DNA of 64,000 nucleotides, taken from positions 1 to 64,000 of the forward strand of contig NZ_CANNCF010000007.1 of the NCBI RefSeq assembly GCF_947503045.1, written 5' to 3'. This document shows, one piece after another, positions 11,376-52,038 of the stretch. Under the pieces are notes generated by a model that searched no databases, was not told where the DNA came from, and saw nothing but the letters and a program-made list of their open reading frames with translations. The position numbers and the translations under genes are program-made. Position 1 is the stretch's first letter. Each line of letters opens with the position of its first letter. The DNA is from an uncultured Tateyamaria sp. (GTDB taxonomy: Bacteria > Pseudomonadota > Alphaproteobacteria > Rhodobacterales > Rhodobacteraceae).

Positions 11376-12371
11376 TTACTCGATGCCGCGGGCCCTCAGG
11401 AACTCAATGGTTTTTTCGGCAATGAATTCGCCATCTTCCTCGAGAGGAAAGTGACCGGTGTCGAGCATATGAATCTCGATGTCCTCCACATCGCGAGCGT
11501 AGGCTTCTGCGCCAGGAGGAAGAAAGAATGCGTCATTTTTTCCCCACGTGACGAGAACTGGGGGTTGGTGTTCTCGCAGATATTCCTGCCAGGCGGGATA
11601 AGCTGCGATGTTGCTGGGATAGTTGGCTAACAAATCCAACTGGATAGTGGACAGCCCCGGCCTTTGAACACGCTCGAAATCCATCAACCAGTTGTCCGGA
11701 AGAATACCGTCTGGGTTGCGTGTTCCATGCGTGTATTGCCATTTCAGCGCTTCAACGGTGAATAGTTCGGTGACAAATTGCGCATCAAGCTCTGGGGTCC
11801 TGTTTTCTGACAGTGCCTTCAATGGTTCGCTTGATGCGGGGCTCACGCCTTCAATGTAAGCATTTCCGTTTTGAACGAGCAAAGCCGTCACGCGCTCAGG
11901 TTGCTCAACGGCAATTCGGAACCCAATCGGTGCGCCATAGTCGTGAATGACCAAAGCATATTCATCGATACCCCGCTGTTCGATAAACGACCCCATGTAC
12001 TGGGCGACGTTATCAAAGGTGTAAGTGAATTCCTCCGGTGATGGCGCGTCGCTGGACCCGAAGCCCGGGTAGTCTGGAGCGATGACGTAGTAATCGTCAC
12101 TCAGGTCACGGATCAGGTCGCGATATTGATGTGAGGAGCTAGGGAAACCGTGCAGCATGACTATGCTTGGCTTCGATGGATCGCCAGCCTCGCGATAGAA
12201 GATCTTGACGCCATCGACAGTTTCATAGCCATAGCTTGTCGGCGCAGCTTCCAGGTGCCCCGGTGCGATGGCGATGGACAGCGCAATCGCCGCCCCGACC
12301 AAAACGGTGCTAAGCTTTTGATGCCCAGTTTCTACCAACGGAGCGAGTGTCAGTGTCTCGATGCGTTTCAT
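11376..12371 (-). CDS. Exported alpha/beta hydrolase with Asp nucleophile (dehalogenase/epoxide-hydrolase-like), copy 1
   Basis: The 331-residue product carries an N-terminal hydrophobic export signal (residues about 20-43, ending LEAAP) and a complete alpha/beta-hydrolase fold. The oxyanion motif is HGFP (74-77), the nucleophile elbow VIHDYGAPIG places Asp at 144, and the catalytic His is in DTGHF near the C terminus. An Asp nucleophile points to haloalkane dehalogenase or epoxide hydrolase chemistry rather than ester hydrolysis. It is closely similar along its whole length to the product of 15531-16469, sharing long identical runs such as YETVDG, FYREAGDP and HGFPSSSHQYR. GGAGAT precedes the ATG. 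It lies between the flavin reductase fusion and a GST gene on the same strand. Confidence 0.85.
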   Translation of the reverse strand: MKRIETLTLAPLVETGHQKLSTVLVGAAIALSIAIAPGHLEAAPTSYGYETVDGVKIFYREAGDPSKPSIVMLHGFPSSSHQYRDLIRDLSDDYYVIAPDYPGFGSSDAPSPEEFTYTFDNVAQYMGSFIEQRGIDEYALVIHDYGAPIGFRIAVEQPERVTALLVQNGNAYIEGVSPASSEPLKALSENRTPELDAQFVTELFTVEALKWQYTHGTRNPDGILPDNWLMDFERVQRPGLSTIQLDLLANYPSNIAAYPAWQEYLREHQPPVLVTWGKNDAFFLPPGAEAYARDVEDIEIHMLDTGHFPLEEDGEFIAEKTIEFLRARGIE

Positions 12372-12470: not shown

Positions 12471-13094
12471 TCATGCCAATTCTGGGATTGGCGAAGTTGC
12501 CATACCGACAAATTTTGGTTCTGCTTCAATGCGACCAAGCCAAGCTCGAATATTTGGGTAAGGCGCAAGATCAACGCCGCCTTCCGGCGCATGTGCAATA
12601 TAGCTGTAGCCAGCGACGTCAGCGATTGTGATTGTGTCTGTTGCCAGCCATTGGCGATCGGCTAGATGCACTTCCATCATCTTGAACAAGTCATGCGCTT
12701 TGCCGACCGCACCTTCGTGGTCCAGCGGCGCACCGAAGACCTTGACCAAACGGGCCGCGCACGGCCCAGAAAAAATGTTGTCCGCCGCGACCGTCAGCCA
12801 TCGCTGCACATCTGCAGCCGCCTTGGGGTCTTCGGGCATCCAAGTAGAGCCCTTCGCGTAAGTCTGGACGAGATACACAAGGATCGCATTCGAGTCCGCG
12901 AGCGTATAGCCGCGGTCATCAATGGCAGGCACCAGACCAAAAGGGCTGATCTTGAGATAGTCGGGCGCTTTATGCGCACCGTTTGCCATATCCAGATCGA
13001 TGGTTTCGTAAGGCAAGTCCAGCAGGGCCAGCATCAGTTCGACACGGTGGCAGTGACCGGATTTTGGGTTACGGTAGAGTTTGATCGGTGTCAT
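12471..13094 (-). CDS. Glutathione S-transferase
   Basis: The 207-residue protein has the thioredoxin-like N-terminal GST domain (KLYRNPKSGHCHRVELMLAL, with the cis-Pro segment GLVPAIDD and the glutathione-contact LADSNAILVYL) and an all-helical C-terminal domain with the TIADVAGYSYI motif (N-capping box). Length and motifs are normal for the family. The N-terminal SGH could supply a catalytic Ser in place of Tyr. GSTs conjugate glutathione to electrophiles or act in dehalogenation; clustering with Asp-nucleophile hydrolases and a reductive dehalogenase makes a detoxification role plausible but the substrate is unknown. It is 24 bases downstream of the DUF1348 gene on the same strand, probably one transcript. 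Confidence 0.88.
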   Translation of the reverse strand: MTPIKLYRNPKSGHCHRVELMLALLDLPYETIDLDMANGAHKAPDYLKISPFGLVPAIDDRGYTLADSNAILVYLVQTYAKGSTWMPEDPKAAADVQRWLTVAADNIFSGPCAARLVKVFGAPLDHEGAVGKAHDLFKMMEVHLADRQWLATDTITIADVAGYSYIAHAPEGGVDLAPYPNIRAWLGRIEAEPKFVGMATSPIPELA

Positions 13095-13118
13095 TGGAAA
13101 TTTCCGTTTTGTGAGGAG

Positions 13119-13595
13119 TTAAAGGCCAAGGTCGCTCAGACCAGCGTGATCATCGGGCCGCCGACCCAAAGGCCAGTGAAATTTGCGTTCATCTTCCGAG
13201 ATCGGTTTTTCGTTGATGGAGGCATGGCGATTAGCCATGAAGCCGTTCTCATCGAACTCCCAATTCTCGTTACCATAGGCCCGGAACCAGTTGCCGCTAT
13301 CATCGTGATATTCATAGGCGTAGCGCACCGCGATGCGATTGTCGGTATAGGCCCACAGCTCCTTGATCAGCCGATAGTCCAGTTCCTTGTTCCATTTGCG
13401 GGTCAGGAATTCTGCGATCTCGGCACGACCCTGCGGGAACTCCGCCCGGTTGCGCCACTTGCTGTCGGGCGTATAGGCCAACGCGACCTTTGCCGGATCC
13501 CGGCCATTCCAGCCGTCCTCTGCAAGCCGAACTTTTTCAATAGCCGTCGCCTTGCTAAACGGCGGCAAAGGGTGGCGGGGCGGTTCAGTTGACAT
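13119..13595 (-). CDS. DUF1348 / NTF2-like protein
   Basis: This 158-residue soluble protein matches the DUF1348 branch of the NTF2 superfamily: [20 protein letters not shown] at the start, then the segments [41 protein letters not shown] and a C-terminal [11 protein letters not shown]. No catalytic role has been shown for the family as far as I know. GAGGA precedes the ATG. It is the first gene of a leftward set (DUF1348, GST) divergent from a LysR regulator, the classical layout of a LysR-controlled operon, so its expression is probably controlled by that regulator. Confidence 0.85.
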
Positions 13596-13688
13596 TTTCG
13601 GGTCCTCTTTAGCTCAACATATTTGCGCTTTGGGTATTGATAACTTGGGCCAGCAGCTGAATTAATAATCCAAGTGTGAAAGACATTA

Positions 13689-13698
13689 TTTCATGAAA
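13689..13698. promoter_or_regulatory. Perfect 10-bp palindrome in the LysR/DUF1348 divergent promoter region
   Basis: TTTCATGAAA is a perfect palindrome 25 bases upstream of the LysR start codon, within the 128-base divergent intergenic region. The same region has a TTTGGGTATT motif at 13629-13638. Either may be part of the regulator's binding site. This is inference from position only. Confidence 0.3.
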
Positions 13699-13723
13699 CG
13701 AACATTGTGAGGCGGATTCCGCT

Positions 13724-14620
13724 GTGGATCGACTGCAAAGCTTGGAAGTATTCATCGCTGTTGCTGAGGCAGAGAGCTTCGCTGGTGGTGCGCGCAAAAG
13801 CGGTCTAAGCGCGCCCTCGGCCACGCGCGGCGTCAATGCACTTGAAGCGCGCCTGGGTGCACGACTCTTTACCCGGACAACCCGTAAAGTCCGGTTGACG
13901 GAAGTTGGCCAGACCTATCTTGAGGATGCACGCCATATCCTCGCTCAGATGCAGGCGGCTGATGATGCGGCCAAAGGGGCAGCTACAAATCCCGTTGGGC
14001 AGCTACGGATCACCTGTTCAAACGAGTTTGGACGAATTTACGTGGCACCAATCCTAACTGAGTTTCTCGATACGCACCCTGGTGTCACCGCCGACGTGTT
14101 GATGGTCGATCGGATCGTGAACATGGTTGAAGAAGGCTTTGATCTTGCGGTCCGGATTGGAGAGCTGCCGTCTTCCGGTCTGGCCGCCGTCCGCGTTGGA
14201 CAGGTGCGCCGGATCGTGTTTGGCACACCAGGCTACTTTGAAGCAAACGGCAGACCGAAAACGCCTGCGGACTTGCAAGCACATCAGATCGTGTCTGCGG
14301 CGCCTGTCAGCCCAACCACTGAATGGCGCTTTGGCCATGACATGCAGGAGACTGTAAGGATCAAACCACGCTTGACCGTCAGCAGTGTTGCTACGGCTAT
14401 TTCTGTTGCCAAGCGCAGTTGGGGGCTCTGTCGGGTTCTGTCATATCAGGTTGGACCTGACCTCCAGAACGGCACACTGGAAACGGTCCTTGAAGAGTTT
14501 GAACCCGCTCCGTTGCCCATCCATCTTGTGCATGTCGAGGGACGCCGGGCCCCGGCCAAAATCAGAGCATTCATTGATCTCGCGAAGGATCGTCTGAAAG
14601 CAACGTCAGTGCTGAACTGA
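13724..14620 (+). CDS. LysR-family transcriptional regulator
   Basis: The 298-residue product starts at GTG 13724 immediately before the winged-helix domain (DRLQSLEVFIAVAEAESFAGG, then GLSAPSATRGVNALEARLGARLF). A linker and the periplasmic-binding-like effector domain follow (residues about 90-298, with LRITCSNEFGRIYVAPILTEFL). No ATG is available at this point and the HTH begins right after the GTG, so this start is well supported. It is divergent from the DUF1348-GST genes and is the likely regulator of them and possibly of the hydrolase and MOSC genes. The effector is unknown; aromatic or halogenated compounds would fit the surroundings. Confidence 0.92.
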   Translation: MDRLQSLEVFIAVAEAESFAGGARKSGLSAPSATRGVNALEARLGARLFTRTTRKVRLTEVGQTYLEDARHILAQMQAADDAAKGAATNPVGQLRITCSNEFGRIYVAPILTEFLDTHPGVTADVLMVDRIVNMVEEGFDLAVRIGELPSSGLAAVRVGQVRRIVFGTPGYFEANGRPKTPADLQAHQIVSAAPVSPTTEWRFGHDMQETVRIKPRLTVSSVATAISVAKRSWGLCRVLSYQVGPDLQNGTLETVLEEFEPAPLPIHLVHVEGRRAPAKIRAFIDLAKDRLKATSVLN

Positions 14621-15530: not shown

Positions 15531-16469
15531 TCAGCGTGCCAACCGCTTTGACAGGAAGTTGCGCATTCGCAGTGCGATGACATCGCCGTCTTCTTCCAGC
15601 GCGAAATGACCGGTCTCGAGGATGTTATAGTCCACATCCTTCAGATCACGCAGATATCCTTCAGCGCCTGGAACCGGGAAGTACGCATCATTCTTGGCCC
15701 AAACAATCAGTGCTGGAGGTTGGTGCTCGCGCATATAGGCCTGCCATTCGGGATACTTGGCCACATTGTTGCGATAGTCGTAGATCAGTCCGAGCTGCAC
15801 GTCGTGCATGCCGGGGCGGCTCATTGCCTGGTGATCCAGCAACCAGTTGTCTGGCAAAATACCATCGGGATTACGCGTACCGTGTGTGTACTGCCAGCGT
15901 AGGCCTTCGACTGAAAAGATGTTGGGTATCAGCGTTGCTTCGTATTCTGCATCGCGCCCGTTTTCCCAAAGAAGGGTTACTGGTGCCCAGGTCTCCGGAT
16001 TGACGCCTTCCTCGTAAGCATTACCGTTTTGGATGATCAGCGTTTCAATCTTTTCGGGGTTGGCTGTCGCGATCCGAAAGCCAACGGGCGCGCCATAGTC
16101 CTGCAGATACATTGAGAAATTGTCGACGCCCTTTTGCTCAAGGAATGTGTCTACCGTCTCCGCAATGTTGTCGAACGTATAGCTGTAGTTTTCCGGCGAC
16201 GGGAAGTCGCTGGACCCGAACCCGGGATAGTCAGGCGCTATCAAGTAGTAGTCATCAGACAAATCAGCCAGCAGCTTGCGATACTGGTGTGACGAGCTTG
16301 GAAATCCGTGCAGCAGGACAATGGCCGGATCAGCAGGATCCCCCGCCTCGCGGTAAAAGATTTCGACGCCGTCGACTGTCTCATAGCCGACACGGACGTC
16401 ATCCGCCGACGCTTGTGTGACGTTCAAACTTGCGATCGCGATAACGGCACTGGTCAGTAGGTGTTTCAT
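15531..16469 (-). CDS. Exported alpha/beta hydrolase with Asp nucleophile, copy 2
   Basis: The 312-residue product starts at the ATG at 16469, chosen because AGGAGACTACC precedes it and a clean signal peptide follows (MKHLLTSAVIAIASLNVTQASA). An in-frame start 29 codons upstream would spoil the signal. The fold is the same as in the product of 11376-12371: HGFPSSSHQYR, nucleophile Asp in LQDYGAPVG, catalytic His in ETGHFALEEDG. Both have an Asp nucleophile, pointing to dehalogenase or epoxide-hydrolase chemistry in the periplasm. The two genes are clear paralogues separated by the GST/DUF1348/LysR/MOSC genes. A 14-bp hairpin follows the stop. Confidence 0.87.
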   Translation of the reverse strand: MKHLLTSAVIAIASLNVTQASADDVRVGYETVDGVEIFYREAGDPADPAIVLLHGFPSSSHQYRKLLADLSDDYYLIAPDYPGFGSSDFPSPENYSYTFDNIAETVDTFLEQKGVDNFSMYLQDYGAPVGFRIATANPEKIETLIIQNGNAYEEGVNPETWAPVTLLWENGRDAEYEATLIPNIFSVEGLRWQYTHGTRNPDGILPDNWLLDHQAMSRPGMHDVQLGLIYDYRNNVAKYPEWQAYMREHQPPALIVWAKNDAYFPVPGAEGYLRDLKDVDYNILETGHFALEEDGDVIALRMRNFLSKRLAR

Positions 16470-17099
16470 GGTAGTCTCCTGTGATTTTGTCGTGGTCCGC
16501 TGCGACATCGAGATCGTGTTTGAGCGCAGACCAGGAAAGGTGGTGCTTCGTGCCAAATGGACGTAGTTAACCCTATTGCTTGAAACAATTTGGGTATTTC
16601 AAAATTCATTGATTTATTACATGATAGTAATAGGACCGTGCCGACTTCGAATTTGGGTATGAGTGTTTACCTCGCCGGTGGGGCTGAGAGGGCGCAACCG
16701 AGGTTAAGTAACAGAGATTATCCAGAAAATTCGGACATGCAGAGTATGTCTCCGGTGCGAGGCAAGCCTGGATAACCGATTGACAGCCGAATTCGTGCAT
16801 CCGCCTATGCGTTCGCAGTTAGTTCCGGCCGAACCGCAGAAGCCCAACATGCATCCGTTCCTGCTAAAAGCTGAGTACCCAGCCATTTAGATACGAAGGA
16901 TCCATGACCGACCTTGTCTTACCCAAAAACACACGATGGTTCTCGACGCTTTTGCCAAAGGGTTTGAAACAGCCTCTCGCATGCGGCTGAACCTGCTGAG
17001 TTTTCTGAAAACGGCACCAAAACGCGGGGCGGCCGCCCGATATGGAAATCAAAGAAATCCGCCACTTGTCATTCCGGTCTGGACATCAGAAGCGACCAT
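16470..17099. other. 630-base stretch without a convincing gene
   Basis: The part next to the hydrolase (16470-16665) is AT-rich and should hold its leftward promoter; TTTGGGTAT occurs at 16589-16597 and again at 16652-16660, the same motif as near the DUF1348 promoter. The remainder, to the stop of the reductive dehalogenase gene, has only short open frames on either strand that match nothing I know, for example one from 16936. I regard it as spacer or decayed sequence. Confidence 0.5.
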
Positions 17100-20000
17100 T
17101 CAGATGTCCAGCTCGACCACACCTTCTGGTTCTGCTGCCCGGCTTTGGCAGAGAATCATTAAGTCTGCCCGCTGCGCCTTGGAGAGCACGAAATCGCGGT
17201 GTTCAACGTCGCCAGACAAAACACCACATTTGCAGACCCCGCACAGTCCGTCGCTGCACTTTAGGTCGATAGGAAATCCATGTTCAATCAGAACATCTGC
17301 AGCGGATTTTTCAGCAGGAACGGCGACCTCTTTCCCGGACCTGGCCAATTTCAACGTGAACGGATGGTTCACATAGTCTGGCTGTTCGGGGACTGAGAAG
17401 TATTCGAGGTGCCGCGCGTCCTCGGGAAAGCCAGCGTGCTCGGCCGCAGCCATGACCGCATCCATGTACCGGGTCGCCCCACAAGTATACACGTGCCAAC
17501 CTGGGCGGTAGCCCGACAGGATTTTATTCAGATCGGCGCGTAACCCTTCATCCGTGATATGCAGGTGAACCCGGTCGGCCCAGGCAAACCCTTCGATGTC
17601 CGACAAAAGCCCCATGCGGTCACGGGAGCGGCCAGAATAATGCAGTTCGAACGCAGCGCCTTCGGCGTATAGTTCATGGGCCATCGCGATCATTGGTGTA
17701 ATCCCGATGCCCCCGCCCATGAGGATTGACCTCTTGGCGCTGTGATCCAGTGGGAAATGGTTGATGGGATGCGAGATGAAGACTCGACGACCTTCATTGA
17801 AAATTCGGTGCATCAGCTTGGAGCCTCCACGTCCCTCCTCCTCTTGCAGCACAGCAATCTGATAGGTCGAACGATCGCTCGGATCACCGGACATCGAGTA
17901 CTGGCGCAGGAAATCCGGAGCAATAACGATATCGAGATGTGCGCCAGCTTGCCATTCAGGCAATGGCGCTCCGGAAACCGATTGGAATTCGTATTTCATC
18001 ACGCCGCTCGCTGTTTCCTTGGCCAGCGTCACAACGACCGGGATCACAGGAACGGCGCCCTCAGAAGGCCGCTTGTGTAGCACACTTTGATCACCTTGCG
18101 CCAAACGCGACTTGTGCTCCTCAGCGGACACCATAGCCTTATAAGCCTCAATCCCCTTTTCGCGGTCCATATGAAAAGGATAGGGATGCGGATGAGGAAC
18201 CAGGGGTGCCGGATAGACCGCCATGGTTTGATCCTCGAATTTCAGATCAAGGTCTTTTAGCAAGGCGCGCTTGTTGACCGGGGATGCCGTGGCCCGGTAC
18301 CCGCCATCCTCTTGTATCTCGATGTCCCACCACCATTTCTTGACCGGATTCAACGACCCGTTGCCGGCCATATCATCGAGTTTTGCAAGGGCGGGCGCCA
18401 GCGCCGGGACATGCATCGCCGCCCAACGAAATGGCATTTCCTTGAATATCCCTTCAAGATTCCAGGGGCAGGTTTTCATGCAGCGACCACACATAGACCC
18501 GCCCATATTGGTCAGCCGATAGGTGGTACATTTCTGGCTGTCCGATTTCCAGATTTCATAGCCGTTGAACATGGTCTTCGGCCCAGCAGTGATCGCCCCG
18601 GACGGACATTCGCGCGCACATTTATTGCAGCTTTCGCAAAATGTCTGAAGACCAAAGTCTATCGGTTTGTCGTGGGCGAGCGGCAGATCGGTTGTCACGG
18701 TCCCGGATTTGAGCCGGGGCCCAAGATATGGGTTCAGTATCACTTCGCCAATGCGGCTAACCTCGCCCAGACCCGACAGCAAGAGCAGGGGAGGTTGCAA
18801 GACCTCTCCATCCATCACCGTATGGGCCTTGGCACTGAAGCCCAAATTGCGGATCTGCTTGGCGATCACCCCACCCAATAGAGAGAAACGCAAATAGGCA
18901 CGCATGGACTGCGACACCGCGATCCAGTCATCGCCGGACGAGCCCTCCATCGTCTCATAGCCCTGATCGATGACCATATTGATGGCCTGCTCGTGGGGCG
19001 GATCAATGACATCGCCGCGGGCATCATGGCTGTACCAGGTCCAGTCCGGACAGCGCGAAATCCCGACCGCGTCGATGCCCAGCCAATAGCTTGTCGCCTT
19101 GATCAATTCCGAGGCCTCTTGTCGTTCGAGCTGCACCTTCTCGGGCGTGGGCGCGCCGTCCTGCAACAAGACAAACGCACCAAGGGCACGTCGCTGCGCC
19201 ATCGACGGGGCCGCCTTACGGATATGGTGGCCGCCTGTGGTGGCCTCTTGCACTTTCTTTCCCATGTCGCCGAATTGCGCACGCGCGAACATATCGGCGC
19301 GTTTGGGTACGCGTGGAATATTCGGTTCATCAATGTAAGTGGTCGGAGTCTCCACCCGTTTCAGTTTCTCGAACGGATGCGCGCCATCGACAAACCGGCG
19401 CTTGGCATAAGGAACGGCGTTCGCGGCATTCTTCGACGATCCGGCACCCAACCTCCACCGGACGCCAAAGGCGGATTTGGGTTGTTTGGCCAGCGGTTTC
19501 AGCGGTTGATCCGGGGCTAGGGCGAACGTGGTCGTCACAGCCGCAAGACCAAAGCAGCTGCCGATGTAGGGGTGGCGCAACGCGCCGTCCTCAAGGGTTG
19601 CAAGCCCCGCCGCTACGGCGAGCCTATTCAGATCGACATCCGAACTCGACACTGTATGCCCACGCGCCTGATACCCGAGAAGGCGCAGGTAATTTGACAG
19701 TACGATCGCGGTTTCGGCCGCAATCATACCCGCACGATGGGCCGACGCCCCACGAATCCAATCACATCCCACTTCGTCTGGCGCGATGTCACGCGGGTTT
19801 TCGTAAAGGATGACCAGACAATGGGTGTGATACTGAATGCCGGTCGGCGGGGCTTCCATCGACTCTTTGAGGTCAGCCATGATTTGGTCAATGCCTGCAG
19901 CCAAGGTCTTAGTCTGACGCGTCTTGAGGTCATTCGCCAGCCGCTGCACGTCCGGATTGACGTGCGGTTGATCCAGTACCGCCTCGGGCGGCAATTCGCA

Positions 20001-20303
20001 CACACCCATTAGTGCGGCATCGGCGAAGTACCCAAAAGACTTCAGATGATTTGCCCGTTCCTGTCGGTCAGTTGGCACCTCGGCAACGGCTTTGTTGATC
20101 AACCCGTCTCGGATCGCATCCAGCATGGCCTGATGTTCGCGCATAGCATTCAGGATTGAACGCGGATCGGTGTCGTCGCGAAAGACCAGTTGCTGCGCTT
20201 GCGGTATACCTGCCAGATCAGGCATAGCGCCCCGAGCCAAAAGCTCGCATGGGTACGGCCCCATGTGGAACGGGCGATCCTTGGACGAGAAATATCGGGT
20301 CAT
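17100..20303 (-). CDS. Self-sufficient reductive dehalogenase (RdhA fused to FMN/NAD/2Fe-2S reductase, BhbA-like)
   Basis: This 1067-residue protein has two halves. Residues 1 to about 690 form an RdhA-type corrinoid enzyme: conserved GEVSRIGEVILNPYLGPR and TTDLPLAHDKPIDFG segments lead into two 4Fe-4S motifs, C556/C559/C562/C566 (CESCNKCARECP) and C592/C605/C608/C612 (CGRCMKTCPW). Residues about 740-1067 are a phthalate-dioxygenase-reductase-like module: flavin motif RQYSM, nucleotide loop MGGGIGITPM, and a plant-type 2Fe-2S centre with C1016, C1021, C1024 and C1052. Electrons from NAD(P)H can thus reach the cobalamin within one polypeptide. There is no Tat signal and no rdhB anchor, so it is the cytoplasmic, catabolic type. 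ATG 20303 is preferred to an upstream in-frame TTG (20321) that overlaps the TRAP gene. It should remove halogen from an aromatic acid imported by the TRAP system. Confidence 0.9.
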   Translation of the reverse strand: MTRYFSSKDRPFHMGPYPCELLARGAMPDLAGIPQAQQLVFRDDTDPRSILNAMREHQAMLDAIRDGLINKAVAEVPTDRQERANHLKSFGYFADAALMGVCELPPEAVLDQPHVNPDVQRLANDLKTRQTKTLAAGIDQIMADLKESMEAPPTGIQYHTHCLVILYENPRDIAPDEVGCDWIRGASAHRAGMIAAETAIVLSNYLRLLGYQARGHTVSSSDVDLNRLAVAAGLATLEDGALRHPYIGSCFGLAAVTTTFALAPDQPLKPLAKQPKSAFGVRWRLGAGSSKNAANAVPYAKRRFVDGAHPFEKLKRVETPTTYIDEPNIPRVPKRADMFARAQFGDMGKKVQEATTGGHHIRKAAPSMAQRRALGAFVLLQDGAPTPEKVQLERQEASELIKATSYWLGIDAVGISRCPDWTWYSHDARGDVIDPPHEQAINMVIDQGYETMEGSSGDDWIAVSQSMRAYLRFSLLGGVIAKQIRNLGFSAKAHTVMDGEVLQPPLLLLSGLGEVSRIGEVILNPYLGPRLKSGTVTTDLPLAHDKPIDFGLQTFCESCNKCARECPSGAITAGPKTMFNGYEIWKSDSQKCTTYRLTNMGGSMCGRCMKTCPWNLEGIFKEMPFRWAAMHVPALAPALAKLDDMAGNGSLNPVKKWWWDIEIQEDGGYRATASPVNKRALLKDLDLKFEDQTMAVYPAPLVPHPHPYPFHMDREKGIEAYKAMVSAEEHKSRLAQGDQSVLHKRPSEGAVPVIPVVVTLAKETASGVMKYEFQSVSGAPLPEWQAGAHLDIVIAPDFLRQYSMSGDPSDRSTYQIAVLQEEEGRGGSKLMHRIFNEGRRVFISHPINHFPLDHSAKRSILMGGGIGITPMIAMAHELYAEGAAFELHYSGRSRDRMGLLSDIEGFAWADRVHLHITDEGLRADLNKILSGYRPGWHVYTCGATRYMDAVMAAAEHAGFPEDARHLEYFSVPEQPDYVNHPFTLKLARSGKEVAVPAEKSAADVLIEHGFPIDLKCSDGLCGVCKCGVLSGDVEHRDFVLSKAQRADLMILCQSRAAEPEGVVELDI

Positions 20304-20313
20304 GCCGCCTGCC

Positions 20314-21618
20314 TCAATCAAACATCGCGTTCGGGATCAAAAGCGCGATCTGCGGAAATGCCACCAACACCACAATGCACAGGGCCATCGCGCCCCAGAA
20401 CGGCATAACACCGCGAAAGATGGTGCCAAGCGGCACATCATCTGCGACCGATCTCACAACAAAACAGTTCACACCCACTGGCGGGCTTATCAAACCCATT
20501 TCAAGAACCAGCACCATGATCACGCCGAACCAGATCGGGTCAAAGCCAAGGCCTGTGATGACGGGAAAGACAATCGGAAGCGTGATCACCATCAGGGACA
20601 GACCCTCGATCACCATGCCCAGCAGTGCATAAAGAATTAGAATGGCGGCCAGCACGACATACGGGTTATCGCTCAGCCCGATCGTATTTTCTGCCACAAC
20701 GGCAGGTAGGCCAGACAGTGCGACGAAAGGCGCGAACACCATCGCGCCGATCAAGATCAAGAAGCATAATCCAGTCGTCTGCAACGTCTCTGACAGCACG
20801 TCAACGAATGCCATCCAGTTCAGGCGTCGCCGTACAAGCGCCACTATCAGCGTCAGAGCGGCACCAACACCCGCGGCCTCGACAGGTGTGAAAAAGCCTA
20901 GGTATATCCCACCGATCGTAGCCAGGATGATCCCGGTGATTGGAAGCGCCCGCAATAAGACCTCTTGCGATGTGGGCAAGTCTTCTTCGGTGTTTAACAC
21001 GCCGCCCGCGCTCGGTGTGCGCCAGACTACAAACGCGATGGTCGCCAGAAACAACCCAGTCAGCAAAAGCCCAGGCAGGATGCCCGCCATGAACAGACGC
21101 CCAATGCTCTCTTCTGTCAGTACCGCATAAAGCACAAAGCCAGTTGACGGCGGCAGCAGTATGCCCAGCGTTCCTCCGGCTGCGATTGTCCCCGTAGCCA
21201 GCCCGGGCTCATAGCTCCGGCGTTTCATCTCGGGATAAGACACACGGCCCATGGTCGAGGCAGACGCAATCGAAGAGCCGGAAAGCGCGGCAAATCCGGC
21301 ACAACCCACGATGGTTGCACTGGCCAGACCGCCCCGCAGATGCCCAACCAGCTTGTAGGCCGCGTCGTAAAGATCGCGGCTGAGGTTCGCCTTTGTCGCG
21401 AGGTTGCCCATAAAGATAAACAGCGGCAGGACCGACAGACTATAGGTGGTCGTGATCGCAAAAGCCTGCCCGGTCATGCTATGCAACGCGCCTGTGAGGG
21501 AGGTCAGCTGCGCGGTCCCCACGACGCCAACAATCAACATTGCAATGCCGACAGGCACCCGCAGAAAGATCAAAGAAAGAAGAGAGGCGAACCCCAAGAT
21601 ACCCGCAATCTGGTCCAC
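20314..21618 (-). CDS. dctM: TRAP transporter large permease (DctM-type)
   Basis: The 434-residue product is a TRAP large membrane subunit with about a dozen hydrophobic segments. The family pattern is clear: LRVPVGIAMLIVGVVG near the start, FIFMGNLATKANLSRDLYDA, the GCAGFAALSGSSIASASTMGR discontinuous helix, the GTLGILLPPSTGFVLYAVLTEESIG block and a C-terminal PPVGVNCFVV. It moves a carboxylate with sodium, using the small subunit and binding protein encoded upstream. Its start overlaps the DctQ stop at base 21618, and its stop lies 10 bases before the ATG of the dehalogenase, so transporter and enzyme form one operon in the order dctP-dctQ-dctM-dehalogenase. Confidence 0.95.
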   Translation of the reverse strand: MDQIAGILGFASLLSLIFLRVPVGIAMLIVGVVGTAQLTSLTGALHSMTGQAFAITTTYSLSVLPLFIFMGNLATKANLSRDLYDAAYKLVGHLRGGLASATIVGCAGFAALSGSSIASASTMGRVSYPEMKRRSYEPGLATGTIAAGGTLGILLPPSTGFVLYAVLTEESIGRLFMAGILPGLLLTGLFLATIAFVVWRTPSAGGVLNTEEDLPTSQEVLLRALPITGIILATIGGIYLGFFTPVEAAGVGAALTLIVALVRRRLNWMAFVDVLSETLQTTGLCFLILIGAMVFAPFVALSGLPAVVAENTIGLSDNPYVVLAAILILYALLGMVIEGLSLMVITLPIVFPVITGLGFDPIWFGVIMVLVLEMGLISPPVGVNCFVVRSVADDVPLGTIFRGVMPFWGAMALCIVVLVAFPQIALLIPNAMFD

Positions 21619-22091
21619 TAGGACACCTCTGTGACGTCTTTGCGAAATGCGCCAAAGGCGTGGATCGCAACCGCCACGGCGGCAACAAAATGTGCAACCG
21701 CCAGAAACAGGTACAGTGGCGCGTAAGGGATCAACAGCAAGGCCGAGGTTTCCGCAAAATCACGCGCATTCGCGCTGGCTCCCACCAGAGACCAGCCCAG
21801 GATTGCCAACATAAGGATAGACAATGCGATCCCTGCCCATGTCACGGCCAAACGGAGGCGTCTGGGAAACCGGTCGACCAGCCCCTCGATTGCAATGGAC
21901 CGCCCACCCAGAATGGCCAGAGGCAAGGCCGCACCGACGCACACCAACAGAAAGACTTCGCTGAGTTCCTTGAGCCCCAGCACCGGCGCACCTAAGGCGC
22001 GGCTCACAACGTCCGCAACGGAAAGGATCATCATTACCACAACGGATGTGCCTCCGAAGGCAATCCCCGCGAGAGAAATCAAAGCTCTCAT
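21618..22091 (-). CDS. dctQ: TRAP transporter small permease (DctQ-type)
   Basis: This 157-residue protein has four hydrophobic segments and the usual DctQ motifs: VADVVSRALGAPVLGLKELSEVFLL in the second quarter, LPLAILGGRSIAIEGLVDRFPRR in the middle. The small subunit caps and holds the large one in the inner membrane. The ATG is preceded by GAGGCG and lies 23 bases from the DctP stop. Its stop overlaps the DctM start, indicating coupled translation. Confidence 0.92.
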   Translation of the reverse strand: MRALISLAGIAFGGTSVVVMMILSVADVVSRALGAPVLGLKELSEVFLLVCVGAALPLAILGGRSIAIEGLVDRFPRRLRLAVTWAGIALSILMLAILGWSLVGASANARDFAETSALLLIPYAPLYLFLAVAHFVAAVAVAIHAFGAFRKDVTEVS

Positions 22092-22114: not shown

Positions 22115-23035
22115 TCAGTTCGAGGCTGCGAAAGGTGACAGGGATTGAAACGCTGCAATTTCATCGTCAGTTAGCGTAACAAGCTCCACGCCACCCTCAG
22201 CCGCGATCTTCAGGCCGGCCTCACCAGCTGCTAAGAATGCTTCTGCTGCTTTTGAACTCAGCACCTCACCGGACGCGTCCATTAGGGATTGCTGTTCTGC
22301 TTCCGTCAAAGCGGCATAGGCTTCGTTATTGATCGCGATAAGAAAACTCGAAACCGATCCAGGAATGTTCACGGTTGCATAATCCGTCACCTCTTGAAGA
22401 TTGTAGGCTCTGAACGCGGCCGGATCGATATAGATGCCGTCAACCGTGCCAGTGCTGAGCGCCTGATAGGCTTCTGTCGGGGGCATGTTGACCGGGACGC
22501 CGCCCCAGGCCGTGATCATAGCAGCCGTCTTGGAGTTAGCGATGCGGATCTTCATGCCCGCGAGATCAGCCGGATAGCGCACTGGTTTGCCCTTGGTAAT
22601 TAGAATGGTTGGGTTATTGGACCACACGGCAAGTGGCACCGCCTGTTTCACTTCGTCCTTGATGGCATCAATGTTCGCCCACATCGCTGCGGTCGCAGAA
22701 GCCCCGTCCGGATAAAGACCGGGCGTCTCATAGCTGGTCAGGACAGGAAACAGCTGCTCAGTGAAGGCAGGTAAGACAAAGCCGATCTCGGCTACGCCAG
22801 TCGCCACGCGTTTGTACTGCTGTTGCGGACCCTTGCCTAATTCACCCGACGGAAAAATCTTGATCGTGCTGGAGCCACCGGTCGCTGCATTGAACGCCTC
22901 AGCCATCGGCGTCATGACGACGCGATCCATCGGGTGCGTCGGCGGCACAAAGCTGGCCAGTTTCAGTTCATCAGCAAAGGCCTGCGTGCCCATGAAGGTG
23001 GCCAAAACGGCCCCCAAAAGTTTGGTCAATTTCAT
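22115..23035 (-). CDS. dctP: TRAP transporter substrate-binding protein (DctP-type)
   Basis: The 306-residue product begins with a clear Sec signal peptide (residues 1-22, ending QAFAD) and continues as a DctP solute-binding protein: FVPPTHPMDRVVMTPMAEAFN, the FPSGELGKGPQQQYKRVATG segment, and the ligand-binding core LAGMKIRIANSKTAAMITAWGGVPVNMPPTEAYQAL. The Arg of KIRIANS normally pairs with the substrate carboxylate, so an organic acid is the likely ligand; linkage to the dehalogenase suggests a halogenated aromatic acid. GGGAGGAAACT precedes the ATG. It is the first gene of the leftward operon, divergent from the MarR gene with operator-like repeats between them. Confidence 0.95.
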   Translation of the reverse strand: MKLTKLLGAVLATFMGTQAFADELKLASFVPPTHPMDRVVMTPMAEAFNAATGGSSTIKIFPSGELGKGPQQQYKRVATGVAEIGFVLPAFTEQLFPVLTSYETPGLYPDGASATAAMWANIDAIKDEVKQAVPLAVWSNNPTILITKGKPVRYPADLAGMKIRIANSKTAAMITAWGGVPVNMPPTEAYQALSTGTVDGIYIDPAAFRAYNLQEVTDYATVNIPGSVSSFLIAINNEAYAALTEAEQQSLMDASGEVLSSKAAEAFLAAGEAGLKIAAEGGVELVTLTDDEIAAFQSLSPFAASN

Positions 23036-23087: not shown

Positions 23088-23165
23088 GTGCAATTTGCAC
23101 GTACTTTTCTCAAACAACCTTGTTTTCTTTGGGTGATTGCACCAATTTAAAAGTGTACTTTGCAC
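23088..23165. promoter_or_regulatory. Pair of 13-bp MarR-type operators between dctP and marR
   Basis: GTGCAATTTGCAC (23088-23100) is a perfect odd palindrome (six-base arms around one base). GTGTACTTTGCAC (23153-23165) matches it at 11 of 13 positions. They lie near the promoters of the leftward transport-dehalogenase operon and the rightward marR gene, 15 bases before the marR start for the second copy. Binding of the MarR product to both sites, released by the substrate, is the natural reading. Confidence 0.6.
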
Positions 23166-23180
23166 GGAGTTTGACGATCA

Positions 23181-23654
23181 ATGAGCGAGCTTGCCACACA
23201 GATTACACGACACAGCTTCAAGGCAGGCATTGGCTTTCGATTGAGTCGCGCGTCGATGATAGTTCAAACTGCCGTGGAGAAGGCACTGGCGTCCCATGGC
23301 CTGACGCGCCTGTCCTGGATCATCCTCGCCTCAATCCACTTTGACCAGAAAAACACGGTAACGGAGGTGTCAAAACACTCCGGGATCGAACGAACAACCG
23401 TATCGCGTATGACGTCCCAGCTCGAAAGAGACGGGGTTTTGGAACGCGCAGAACACAGGTCCGACCGTCGATCCAGCCGACTAACGGTTACCACTAAGGG
23501 TCTGGAACTGTGTAACAAGGTACCGAATGTCATACAGAAGGCTTGCGAGCCATATTTTCTCGATTTGTCGCCGAACCAAATCGTGCTTCTTAGCGAATTG
23601 CTTGACTTAATCCAGTCTGATGAACGCTCAGTGTGGCTTGGGTCCCGATCGTGA
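23181..23654 (+). CDS. MarR-family transcriptional regulator
   Basis: The 157-residue protein is a MarR-type winged-helix regulator: an N-terminal dimerisation helix (TRHSFKAGIGFRLSRASMIVQ), the DNA-binding part with VTEVSKHSGIERTTVSRMTSQLERDGVLERAEHRSDRRSSRLTVTTKG (residues about 55-105), and C-terminal helices for dimerisation. The wing DRRSSRLT is typical. It is divergent from the TRAP-dehalogenase operon with two matching 13-bp palindromes between, so it very likely represses that operon and itself until a halogenated or phenolic ligand binds. Confidence 0.92.
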   Translation: MSELATQITRHSFKAGIGFRLSRASMIVQTAVEKALASHGLTRLSWIILASIHFDQKNTVTEVSKHSGIERTTVSRMTSQLERDGVLERAEHRSDRRSSRLTVTTKGLELCNKVPNVIQKACEPYFLDLSPNQIVLLSELLDLIQSDERSVWLGSRS

Positions 23655-29859: not shown

Positions 29860-30798
29860 ATGTCTCGCTTCGATCACACCGCCTTCGTCAACTCGCGCCG
29901 CGATGAGCGCAGCCTTGGCCACCATACGCTCCGTGCGTATGCCCAAGATCTTCGCACCTTCGCGCGCTTCACCAAGGCCCAGCAACTCAGCGACCCGCTG
30001 TCGAAAGACGACATCCTCGCCTATCATCGGCATTTACGCGACGAGCTGTGCGCCAAGCCTGCGACTATCGAACGCCGGCTCGTGACCCTCAAATCGTACT
30101 ATGCTTGGCGCGAGGATCGAAACAGCGCCCTGCCCTCCCCATTCGCAGATATCCGGATCACCGTGAAGATCCCGCGGCGTCTCCCGCGCCCAATTGATCG
30201 CGACACGCTCAAATTGGTTCTTCGAGCCAACGGCGGCGCAATCGATGCGCGGTCGAGCCCGGGCGCGGACCACGCTGTACCGGACGCGCAGAATGCCGTT
30301 ACGATCCTGCTCATCAAGCTGTTGATCGTCACAGGTCTGCGCATCAGTGAACTCACGAATCTGAAGGTCCGCAATGTGTCGTCGGACGGAAGCCAGATAC
30401 TCGTGCAAGGCAAAGGCAGCAAAGAACGGATCGTCTTCGTGCCGAACCGGGAGCTGCAAGAGGACTTTCGACGCTTCTGTCAGATGCGTTCCAAAGACGG
30501 CTCGATTGCCTCGCCACTGTTCCTTAACATGGCCGGGCGTCGGCTCCGCGCGGCCACCTTCCGCAAGCGGCTCCGGGCACTGTCAAAACGCCTTAGCATT
30601 GAACCGCATCTGACCCCGCACCGTTTCCGGCACTCGGCCGCGACGCTTCTCATCGAAGCGGGCATCGACATCCGTATGGTCCAGGCGCTCCTTGGGCATG
30701 CGAACCTCAAGACGACCGAGATCTACGTGCGGGTCTCGAACCATGCGCTTAAACGGGCGCTTGAGCGCGTCGATATTCTGGAAGTCCTCAGAAATTAG
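29860..30798 (+). CDS. Tyrosine recombinase (XerC/D-like integrase)
   Basis: The 312-residue protein has the N-terminal SAM-like core-binding domain (residues about 15-100, HHTLRAYAQDLRTFARF) and a complete catalytic domain: Arg in VTGLRISELTNLKV, the beta-strand Lys in VQGKGSKERIVFV, His-x-x-Arg in TPHRFRHSAATLL, His in ALLGHANLKTTE, and the nucleophilic Tyr in TEIYVRVS. It should cut and rejoin DNA at short inverted-repeat sites; the palindrome 65 bases upstream of the start is the obvious candidate. The ATG follows AGGAG. It marks the left end of the island of defence-type genes. Confidence 0.92.
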   Translation: MSRFDHTAFVNSRRDERSLGHHTLRAYAQDLRTFARFTKAQQLSDPLSKDDILAYHRHLRDELCAKPATIERRLVTLKSYYAWREDRNSALPSPFADIRITVKIPRRLPRPIDRDTLKLVLRANGGAIDARSSPGADHAVPDAQNAVTILLIKLLIVTGLRISELTNLKVRNVSSDGSQILVQGKGSKERIVFVPNRELQEDFRRFCQMRSKDGSIASPLFLNMAGRRLRAATFRKRLRALSKRLSIEPHLTPHRFRHSAATLLIEAGIDIRMVQALLGHANLKTTEIYVRVSNHALKRALERVDILEVLRN

Positions 30799-47417: not shown

Positions 47418-48014
47418 ATGATCACGTCGAAAATCAAGCAACGCATTGTTGGGAAGGGCCGAGGCGCCATCTTTGCGCCGTCGGACTTCCTCGATGTCGG
47501 ATCGCGCGCAAGCGTCGATCAGGCATTGTCACGCCTGGCGGATCAGGGTGTGATCCGGCGTCTGACGCGTGGGCTTTACGACTATCCAAAGCAAAGCCCC
47601 CGTTTCGGTGTCTTGGCCCCGTCTGCTGATGACATCGCGCGCGCCGTTGCTCGGAAGGACAACCAGGTTCTGCAGCCCTCCCCTGCCATGGCGGCGAACC
47701 AGTTGGGTCTATCCACCCAAGTGCCGTCCAATCCGACCTACATGACCGACGGGCCGACACGAACCAAGAAGATCGGACGGCAGGTGATCCAGTTCCGAAA
47801 CGCCTCCCCGAAGACCTTGGTTGGTGCCGGGTCTAAGACGGGCACTGTGTTTCAGGCGCTCCGCTATGTCGGCAAGGATCGCGTCGACGATCAGGTGATC
47901 GGCAAGATCGCCCGCACGCTGGGTGCCAAGGACCGGGCGCAGCTTGCAAAGCAAAGCCGACACGTTCCGGCCTGGATGCACCCCGTCGTGCAGCAGATCG
48001 TAGCACACGCCTGA
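47418..48014 (+). CDS. DUF6088 / AbiEi-like antitoxin
   Basis: The 198-residue protein starts with a winged-helix part (KIKQRIVGKGRGAIFAPSDFLDVGSRASVDQALSRLADQGVIRRLTRGLYDYP, residues 1-57), characteristic of the DUF6088 / AbiEi antitoxins of type IV systems. A longer C-terminal region follows (PAMAANQLGLS, later TLGAKDRAQLAKQSRHVPAWM). AbiEi proteins repress their own promoter and neutralise the partner nucleotidyltransferase. The toxin gene starts 2 bases after its stop. The promoter just upstream has a very short leader, suiting autorepression near the start site. Confidence 0.85.
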   Translation: MITSKIKQRIVGKGRGAIFAPSDFLDVGSRASVDQALSRLADQGVIRRLTRGLYDYPKQSPRFGVLAPSADDIARAVARKDNQVLQPSPAMAANQLGLSTQVPSNPTYMTDGPTRTKKIGRQVIQFRNASPKTLVGAGSKTGTVFQALRYVGKDRVDDQVIGKIARTLGAKDRAQLAKQSRHVPAWMHPVVQQIVAHA

Positions 48015-48016
48015 GC

Positions 48017-49027
48017 ATGGACGCTTTTGCGAACGACACGCCTGAACACCGAGACGAAGCGTTCCGCCAAGGCGCAGCGGAACTCGGGTTTGCCAAGGCG
48101 ATTGTCGAAAAGGACTTCTGGGTCTGCTGGTCGCTCCAGCACCTGTTTGCCCTGCCCTCCTTTGGCGATCACCTGATCTTTAAAGGAGGTACATCGCTCT
48201 CGAAAGCCTATGACGTCATCCAGCGGTTCTCTGAGGACGTCGATCTGTCGCTTGATCGCGCCCAACTCGGGTTCGAGGGAGACAGTGACCCTGAGAGCCC
48301 CGACCTCTCGGGCGGCAAACGCAAATCGCTGCTACAGGATCTTCAGGAGGCCGCCGAGGCCACAGTGGCAGGCCCCCTGCTCGATGAAATCAACACCGCC
48401 TTCGCAGCGCGCCTGGATCAGCCGTTCTCGCTCCAGATCGACGACGGCGACCCTCAGACCATCTTATTTGCCTACCCGTCTCTCGATGACAAAGACCAAG
48501 GTTACGTCAAGCCCGTTGTGCGTTTTGAGTTCGGCGCGCGTGGCGCACAGCTTCCGGCCGAACAACGAACCCTCTCAACCTATGTCCAACAAGCCTTTCC
48601 CGATCTGTCCGGCCTTAACCCTGTTGATGTGCGCACCCTCGGGATCGAACGGACCTTCTGGGAGAAGGCGACGATCCTACACATGCTGTTCCATCAGGAC
48701 AGAAGCAAACCGCTCGCTGACCGCATGTCCCGGCACTACTATGACATGGCGCAACTGACCCAGCACAACGCCAAGGCGCGGGCTTTGGCCAATCTCGACC
48801 TCTTGAGCGAGGTTAGCCATCATAAGTCGGTGTTCTTCAAAGCGGCCTGGGCGAGATACGAAGACGCAAAACCGGGATCGCTTCGCCTAGCCCCAGGCAA
48901 AGACCTCGAGGCCGCACTCCGTCGGGACTATGCCGGAATGCATGAGATGATCATGGGTGACGCGCCAAGCTTTGATGACGTGATGAGCGCGATCGCGGCG
49001 CTGGAAGCGGAAATCAACTCAGCCTGA
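48017..49027 (+). CDS. AbiEii/AbiGii-family nucleotidyltransferase toxin
   Basis: The 336-residue product has the core of the AbiEii family: FKGGTSLSKAYDVI (KGGTSxxK), then RFSEDVDLSLDR, the DxD motif of the nucleotidyltransferase fold. A large C-terminal part with LGIERTFWEKATILHML and SRHYYDMAQLT matches the family (about 300 residues). Members such as MenT toxins transfer nucleotides to tRNA 3' ends and block growth until relieved by AbiEi. It begins 2 bases after the antitoxin gene, so the pair forms one operon. It may act in abortive infection or plasmid maintenance. Confidence 0.9.
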   Translation: MDAFANDTPEHRDEAFRQGAAELGFAKAIVEKDFWVCWSLQHLFALPSFGDHLIFKGGTSLSKAYDVIQRFSEDVDLSLDRAQLGFEGDSDPESPDLSGGKRKSLLQDLQEAAEATVAGPLLDEINTAFAARLDQPFSLQIDDGDPQTILFAYPSLDDKDQGYVKPVVRFEFGARGAQLPAEQRTLSTYVQQAFPDLSGLNPVDVRTLGIERTFWEKATILHMLFHQDRSKPLADRMSRHYYDMAQLTQHNAKARALANLDLLSEVSHHKSVFFKAAWARYEDAKPGSLRLAPGKDLEAALRRDYAGMHEMIMGDAPSFDDVMSAIAALEAEINSA

Positions 49028-50778: not shown

Positions 50779-52038
50779 ATGCTCAGAAACATGCAAGATT
50801 CCGACAATAAAGGGTACAAAACGCCCACGCCAGACGGACGCGAGGCTGAGATTTCGTCCGCAGCGTCCCCAAGCCCGTCGAACAATCGTCAGCACGACGA
50901 GAGGCCACGTAGTGGCGCGCCCGCTGACGGCGCATCTGCCGCAGGTATGCCCGACATCGATTTGGATGATCTTTTATCAGAGCCTGCCGGCAAGGACGAC
51001 AATGGTGAACAGAGCATCGCCCTGCCCGCCCATGTCGCCGGTTCTGGAACGCTCGACCGCCTCGTCGACCAAGCTCGGGATTACGCAGCTGCAGCCACGG
51101 CCGAGAATACCAACAAAGCCTACAAGACGGACTGGAAACACTTTGCCAGCTGGTGCCGGCGAAAGGGTGTGGATGCGCTGGTCCCCTCCCCCGCTGTGAT
51201 CGGTCTCTATATCACCGACTGCGCCAAACCCCAGGATGGGTCCCCTGCCCTCTCCGTCAGCACGATCGAGCGGCGTCTGTCCGGCCTCGCCGCAAACTAC
51301 CGGCATCGCGGCCTCACCCTCGACATGAAGGATCGCCACATCGCCTCGGTCTGGGCCGGGATCAAGAATACGCACGGCAAACCACCGACACAGAAGGAAG
51401 CGGTGCTGGCCGAGGATGTGCTCGAGATGGTGGCGCTGCTCAGCTTTGGACTGCGCGATATGCGTGACCGCGCGATCCTGCTGATCGGGTATGCGGGTGG
51501 GTTGCGCCGCACTGAAATCACCGGTCTGGATATCGGTAAAGAAGAGACCGACGACGGTCGCGGTTATCTGGAAATGCTAGACGGCGGCGTTGTGCTACAC
51601 ATCAGGGGCAAGACCGGCTGGCGCGAGGTTGAGATCGGTCGCGGATCCTCAGATCAGACCTGCCCTGTTCACGCGCTCGAACAATGGCTTCATTTTGCCA
51701 AGATCGACTTCGGGCCGGTTTTTCGGCGGGTGTATCGGGACAATTCCGGCGTCGGGATCGAGCGACTCTCTGACAAACATGTTGTGCGGCTTATCAAGCG
51801 TCTCGTCCTGGACTCCGGGGTTGGCCTTGACCGACCAACACTCTCAAAATTATCCGATGAAGAGCGTGTGAAGCACTTTTCCGGCCATTCCCTGCGCGCC
51901 GGTCTCGCCTCCGGGGCTGAAGTCGACGAGCGCTACGTCCAAAAACAGCTTGGGCATGCCTCGGCCGAGATGACACGGCGCTATCAACGCCGACGGGATC
52001 GGTTCCGCGTGAACCTGACCAAAGCTGCCGGATTGTAA
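50779..52038 (+). CDS. Tyrosine site-specific recombinase (integrase)
   Basis: The 419-residue protein has a long polar N terminus (residues 1 to about 85), a SAM-like core-binding domain (NTNKAYKTDWKHFASWCRRKG) and a catalytic domain: Arg in GYAGGLRRTEITGLDIG, His-x-x-Arg in GHSLRAGLASGAE, His in KQLGHASAEMTRRYQRR, where Y (about residue 402) is the nucleophile. Length and N-terminal extension set it apart from the recombinase at 29860. It is divergent from DUF1403-ScpB and has an inverted repeat directly before its start. It marks the right end of the defence-type island and may have mediated its insertion. Confidence 0.92.
   Translation: MLRNMQDSDNKGYKTPTPDGREAEISSAASPSPSNNRQHDERPRSGAPADGASAAGMPDIDLDDLLSEPAGKDDNGEQSIALPAHVAGSGTLDRLVDQARDYAAAATAENTNKAYKTDWKHFASWCRRKGVDALVPSPAVIGLYITDCAKPQDGSPALSVSTIERRLSGLAANYRHRGLTLDMKDRHIASVWAGIKNTHGKPPTQKEAVLAEDVLEMVALLSFGLRDMRDRAILLIGYAGGLRRTEITGLDIGKEETDDGRGYLEMLDGGVVLHIRGKTGWREVEIGRGSSDQTCPVHALEQWLHFAKIDFGPVFRRVYRDNSGVGIERLSDKHVVRLIKRLVLDSGVGLDRPTLSKLSDEERVKHFSGHSLRAGLASGAEVDERYVQKQLGHASAEMTRRYQRRRDRFRVNLTKAAGL

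Follow-up and report, generated by a model that had tools for sequence, protein, structure and literature searches.

What does a gene for a reductive dehalogenase do on a plasmid of a probably marine alphaproteobacterium, and on which compounds does its product act? The stretch of DNA analyzed here, referred to below as the window, covers bases 1 to 64,000 of contig C7 (115,284 bases) from an uncultured Tateyamaria sp., and it contains at 17100-20303, on the minus strand, an open reading frame (ORF), rdhA, which encodes 1067 residues from an ATG and joins an RdhA part in front with a phthalate-dioxygenase-reductase-like (PDOR) module behind. Judging from its sequence, the protein is a member of the known class of self-sufficient, catabolic RdhA enzymes, namely the RdhA-PDOR fusions represented by BhbA and JtRdhA. 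We consider, with a probability of roughly 0.8, that it acts as a cytoplasmic, NAD(P)H-driven, B12-dependent reductive dehalogenase and that its gene is the last one in an import-and-dehalogenate operon accompanied by a divergent MarR-family regulator. The type of enzyme is already known; what the present analysis adds is a transporter, a regulator, a palindrome, a second copy of the gene, and a likely place in metabolism.

The first-pass annotation of this DNA had described a single 1067-residue chain with an RdhA part, two 4Fe-4S motifs, and a C-terminal reductase, and this architecture was borne out by database matches and by the cysteines. The RdhA core scored 192.3 bits against the NCBIfam RDH model TIGR02486 (cut-off 160.35), and a PDB search aligned residues 3-107 and 158-734 with the structure of NpRdhA from Nitratireductor pacificus (4ras; also 6zxu) at an E value of 2e-153, so the family match that had been set beforehand as the test for residues 1-690 is a strong one. 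Residues 762-1064 matched phthalate dioxygenase reductase (2pia) at 2.5e-54, and the Pfam domains Fer4_7, Fer4_16, and Fer2, the last at residues 987-1056, all exceeded their cut-offs. In an alignment of 44 proteins, comprising the window protein, the product of the second copy, proteins from 37 of the 80 genome_contigs loci surveyed below, L095 and L096 from related genomes, and the plasmid-borne proteins BhbA, Nitratireductor OM-1, and Jannaschia M317, the 4Fe-4S cysteines (C556/C559/C562/C566 and C592/C605/C608/C612) and the 2Fe-2S cysteines (C1016/C1021/C1024/C1052) were invariant. The same is true of F339, S466, M467, Y470, K532, and R596, which by hand count on the 4ras alignment correspond to the active-site residues F291, S422, M423, Y426, K488, and R552 named for NpRdhA (PMC10463259). 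By sequence alignment, the N-terminal half of the protein also covers the part of NpRdhA that holds a vestigial second corrinoid-binding domain. Because the frame is intact and the 43 aligned relatives are 50 to 80% identical to it, rdhA is not a chance ORF. An alternative start, a TTG at 20321 (ORF 17100-20321), would overlap the stop codon of dctM, while the ATG at 20303 sits 10 nt past that stop, which makes the 1067-residue product the likelier one.

A respiratory RdhA was rejected, as no twin-arginine motif of a Tat signal was seen by eye at the N terminus and no RdhB membrane-anchor gene adjoins rdhA, the flanking genes, which were the neighbors inspected for it, being dctM and an alpha/beta hydrolase gene. 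The designation of the enzyme as BhbA-type had also been correct: BhbA, from plasmid pBHB of Comamonas sp. 7D-2, can be aligned with 100% of the length at 50.4% identity, is likewise plasmid-borne, and has a transporter binding protein gene just upstream. That neighbor is, however, annotated as a tripartite tricarboxylate transporter binding protein and not as a TRAP (tripartite ATP-independent periplasmic) one, protocatechuate 4,5-dioxygenase genes adjoin bhbA on pBHB, and BhbA belongs to a bromoxynil pathway (PMC10463259). The characterized marine enzyme of the class is JtRdhA of Jhaorihella thermophila, which uses NADPH, flavin mononucleotide (FMN), a 2Fe-2S cluster, two 4Fe-4S clusters, and cobalamin, and which acts on brominated and iodinated phenols, while the chlorinated ones tested only inhibit it (PMC10463259). 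With NADPH its rate was 100% of the best with 3,5-dibromo-4-hydroxybenzoate and 99% with 3-bromo-4-hydroxyphenylacetate; it also accepts bromophenols and tetrabromobisphenol A (TBBPA), although 2,6-dibromophenol was converted at only 6.8% of the best rate, and it enables Escherichia coli W to grow on 3-bromo-4-hydroxyphenylacetate (PMC10463259). Compared by that description, the window protein resembles JtRdhA in its single chain, two 4Fe-4S motifs, lack of a Tat signal, fused PDOR, marine host, and the six active-site residues (PMC10463259). NpRdhA, in contrast, is described as having no fused reductase (PMC10463259). Ros_A3X954 of Roseobacter sp. is another marine debrominase reported to have no Tat signal, but its 4Fe-4S motifs lie at 283-294 and 337-345 instead of 556-612, which indicates a much shorter dehalogenase part (PMC13101508). 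The Discussion of PMC10463259 leaves open whether the substrates of the fusion class are restricted to brominated compounds.

The genes preceding rdhA, all on the minus strand, encode a TRAP transporter: dctP for the substrate-binding protein (22115-23035; PF03480, 134 bits, and NF037995 over its cut-off), dctQ for the small permease (21618-22091; PF04290, 63.5 bits, over its cut-off), and dctM for the large permease (20314-21618; PF06808, 313 bits, and TIGR00786 over its cut-off). The order is dctP-dctQ-dctM-rdhA, with rdhA last and separated from dctM by 10 nt. A MarR-family regulator gene runs divergently on the plus strand (23181-23654; PF12802 and PF01047 over their cut-offs), and the 145-bp gap between it and dctP contains the operator-like palindrome GTGCAA-T-TTGCAC (23088-23100) plus two further half sites, which across the 1.86 Mb of collected loci occur at 0.42 per kb. 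In those loci, some of which overlap, the exact palindrome is found in 2 places, the window and L012:177. The latter lies 110 bp upstream of an rdhA that is sister to the window copy (value 99) in a FastTree tree of 94 RdhA proteins from 95 loci, from which the broken L101 was left out, and what looks like the start of a divergent MarR gene is cut off there by the contig end. One-mismatch versions occur in four more places, one of which (L022:7174) is inside a MarR-dctP gap. From this distribution, the palindrome is probably the operator of the sub-group of the window copy and not of the whole family.

A second rdhA exists in the same genome (C3:72848-76045), and its product is 78% identical to that of the window copy over residues 3-1067. 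Upstream of it, on the same strand, are hpaE, hpaD, an HpaG-like gene, and hpaH, of which HpaE, HpaD, and HpaH exceeded their cut-offs and the HpaG-like product stayed under its own (158 versus 276 bits). Past it, on the opposite strand, are genes for maleylacetoacetate isomerase and homogentisate dioxygenase, each of which passed its cut-off, with an FAD monooxygenase gene and a metallo-hydrolase-like gene in between. The 4-hydroxyphenylacetate 3-hydroxylase HpaB gave no match in the host genome with either of two models, a negative that is weak for TIGR02310 because this model exceeded its cut-off in none of the 14 control genomes; as a guess, the FAD monooxygenase may carry out ring hydroxylation instead. 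PobA and CobN both exceeded their cut-offs in the host genome, making a 4-hydroxybenzoate route and B12 synthesis plausible.

In one genome collection, 410 of the 487 pattern matches encode a relative of the enzyme, and in view of these and the published enzymes the idea of a categorically new fusion was rejected. The best 80 of the 410 were surveyed for their neighborhoods, and the counts therefore lean to close relatives, about 60 of the 80 loci being Rhodobacterales by record title and the rest mainly Rhizobiales and Granulosicoccaceae; contigs are often short, with at least 1.5 kb upstream visible in 71 loci and at least 7 kb on both sides in 47. At six of the 80, dctM lies near rdhA, in four cases on the same strand 24 to 108 bp upstream and in two as part of an opposite-strand TRAP set upstream. 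With the identity and coverage cut-offs chosen, hpaD was found in three and hmgA in seven. Clustering of the genes within 8 kb of rdhA at all 95 loci gave a pobA-like group in six loci, in three of them directly behind rdhA; the one at L084, the sole member tested, passes the PobA cut-off and starts 9 nt after the rdhA stop. These three are the metagenome-assembled genomes L057, L060, and L084, titled Rhizobiaceae or Hyphomicrobiales, in which the 4-hydroxybenzoate 3-monooxygenase-like gene follows rdhA immediately on the same strand. Molybdenum-hydroxylase-type genes (xanthine dehydrogenase type) were found in five to seven loci; they lie just 3' of rdhA at L052, L065, L066, L072, L079, and L085, all Ruegeria by title, and would point to a different substrate route there. 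At eight loci (L041, L044, L056, L067, L073, L074, L082, and L086), same-strand carboxyltransferase (CT_A_B) and LamB/YcsF genes precede rdhA at a distance of 0.2 to 1.7 kb. Many of the 95 loci have none of the TRAP, hpa, hmg, pobA, molybdenum-hydroxylase, or carboxyltransferase neighbors. On the tree, the hmg contexts were clustered (1 of 500 shuffles was as low) and the TRAP contexts, with six changes, were not (78 of 500), so the linkage of TRAP genes with rdhA seems to have been gained or lost on several occasions. Among plasmids, 8 of 66 matching records have a match that spans 80% or more of the protein, including Comamonas pBHB, Yoonia SS1-5, Jannaschia M317, and Ruegeria TM1040, while the other listed records match the reductase part. 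On the Yoonia sp. SS1-5 plasmid pSS15unnamed1 (L101, 12001-15199), a MarR gene and dctP-Q-M are followed by a match to rdhA.

From these neighborhoods and the characterized relatives we infer the substrate, transport, regulation, and electron path as follows. By analogy with JtRdhA, the window enzyme would release halide from an aromatic acid, probably with a preference for bromine and iodine. DctPQM is most likely the importer of a halogenated 4-hydroxyaryl acid; in the C-terminal module, FMN would accept a hydride from NAD(P)H, and single electrons would then reach the corrinoid by way of the 2Fe-2S cluster and both 4Fe-4S clusters; the corrinoid would remove bromine or iodine from an ortho position, the proton coming from Tyr470 and Lys532/Arg596; and the dehalogenated acid might enter ordinary ring-cleavage routes (hpa, hmg, or pob) encoded elsewhere in the genome. 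The hpa, hmg, and pobA neighbors of the second copy and of relatives suggest that the natural substrates are halogenated 4-hydroxyphenylacetates or hydroxybenzoates. In this way, gene neighborhoods name candidate natural substrates and an importer for RdhA of the fusion class. Marine animals and algae contain brominated and iodinated tyrosines as natural products. A wider proposal, which we put forward tentatively and with less than even odds, is that the fusions of marine Rhodobacterales are interchangeable front ends for the breakdown products of halogenated tyrosines, such as bromo- or iodo-4-hydroxyphenylacetate and related acids, and that one cell might keep one copy in a homoprotocatechuate/homogentisate cluster and another, separately acquired, transporter-coupled, and MarR-controlled, on a conjugative plasmid, the two differing in their substrates or inducers. 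If true, aerobic marine bacteria would recycle natural organobromines and organoiodines through a plasmid-mobile B12 enzyme, with bearing on the marine halogen cycle and on the clean-up of brominated phenols. In titles and the beginnings of abstracts, nothing was found on the gene neighborhoods reported above, which is weak evidence that no such report exists, most subscription papers lying outside the search.

Several observations weigh against reading the protein as a dehalogenase in an import-and-dehalogenate operon. No Pfam dehalogenase domain reached an E value of 0.001 in the protein, so that its membership in RdhA rests on the NCBIfam and PDB matches. No dctM at 45% identity or more was found in 74 of the 80 surveyed relatives, some on short contigs. 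Among the 11 regions examined upstream of MarR genes, 10 lack the exact palindrome, including that of the close TRAP-linked relative L042. An attempt to read the ligand of DctP off its structure matches failed, the depositor names of the best-ranked entries stating no ligand and a literature search by PDB code giving unrelated papers. Finally, no ring-cleavage gene was recognized among the neighbors of the window copy that were scanned, a selection of its ORFs. This last point, the plasmid location, and the action of JtRdhA on bromophenols and TBBPA, however slow with 2,6-dibromophenol (PMC10463259), would agree with a detoxifying role, in which the enzyme dehalogenates toxic marine bromophenols without feeding a carbon pathway. 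We nevertheless regard such a role as unlikely, because an importer in the operon of rdhA favors the uptake of a nutrient-like acid and because the second copy and some relatives adjoin hpa, hmg, or pobA genes.

The presence of two copies at 78% identity in one genome raises the question of whether the plasmid copy duplicates the one on C3 and is redundant or in decay, and the corresponding rdhA on the Yoonia plasmid is indeed broken: it appears as two tblastn pieces with one stop in the translated stretch and is absent from the gene table. The window frame, in contrast, is intact, with every functional residue named above in place, and the pairwise nonsynonymous and synonymous divergences of the two copies (dN 0.16; dS 1.9, which is near saturation) suggest purifying selection, dN being far below dS. 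In addition, the tree places the window copy with L012 and, at a value of 98, with Ruegeria sp. HKCCA6707 (L042), leaving the C3 copy outside this group, by which a recent duplication within the genome was rejected. Decay of a duplicate thus seems quite improbable, and the two copies were probably acquired separately, as their positions in the tree indicate. Among 19 other genomes of the genus, one had a match at an E value of 1e-100. The reduction of a non-organohalide, as QueG reduces epoxyqueuosine within the same corrinoid enzyme class (PMC10463259), can hardly be the function of the protein, since the QueG model TIGR00276 gave a weak, partial match of 28 bits against a cut-off of 200, on which QueG was rejected, compared with 192 against 160 for RDH, and since the NpRdhA active-site residues are kept.

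The portability claimed in the first-pass annotation is backed by RepABC-, secretion-, and relaxase-type genes, which are evidence from gene content and not from observed transfer. On the minus strand, repC of a RepABC replicon (52933-54246; NF040974 equivalog, 319 bits, cut-off 150; PF03428) is accompanied by a probable repB (54489-55526), which had no Pfam or NCBIfam match and is named from its position between repC and a repA-like gene and from a plasmid DNA match with RepC and ParB-domain gene features, and by a repA/ParA-like partition ATPase gene (55523-56881; PF13614 over its cut-off; TIGR03453, 123 bits, under its cut-off of 348). On the same strand, 57395-59913 holds secretion genes of the conjugation type, one for DotH/IcmK (PF12293 over its cut-off) and one TrbI-like (PF03743, 30.7 bits, just short of the cut-off of 35), and a MobA/MobL relaxase-helicase gene is found near the other end of contig C7 (L008:6688-10476). 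At the DNA level, the RepC region shares 77% identity with a plasmid of Roseobacter denitrificans, while a stretch of the DotG/IcmE type shares 75% with one of Octadecabacter arcticus. ARAGORN found no tRNA genes in the window, and the contig ends have no exact terminal overlap of 15 to 500 bases, so that circularity was not shown. On the basis of these genes, we take the plasmid to be conjugative. It also has a DUF6088/AbiEii gene pair resembling a type IV toxin-antitoxin module (47418-49027) and two tyrosine-recombinase (phage integrase family) genes (29860-30798 and 50779-52038).

Downstream of rdhA, a block of LysR, NTF2-like, and glutathione S-transferase (GST) genes (12471-14620) recurs in equal order and orientation on the Jannaschia sp. 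M317 plasmid (L102, 15212-17362), with protein identities of 64, 90, and 85%, respectively. Despite this common block, the tree does not pair the two rdhA genes as sisters. At 45% identity and half coverage, 1 of the 94 other loci has the complete block, and two more have the NTF2-like gene alone. Alpha/beta hydrolases are encoded at 11376-12371 and 15531-16556, both with signal-like N termini by eye, and the second weakly resembles haloalkane dehalogenases, chiefly in its first half. About 14 kb from rdhA, a carboxymuconolactone-decarboxylase-family gene adjoins a thiolase gene (770-2798), and this pair possibly belongs to aromatic catabolism.

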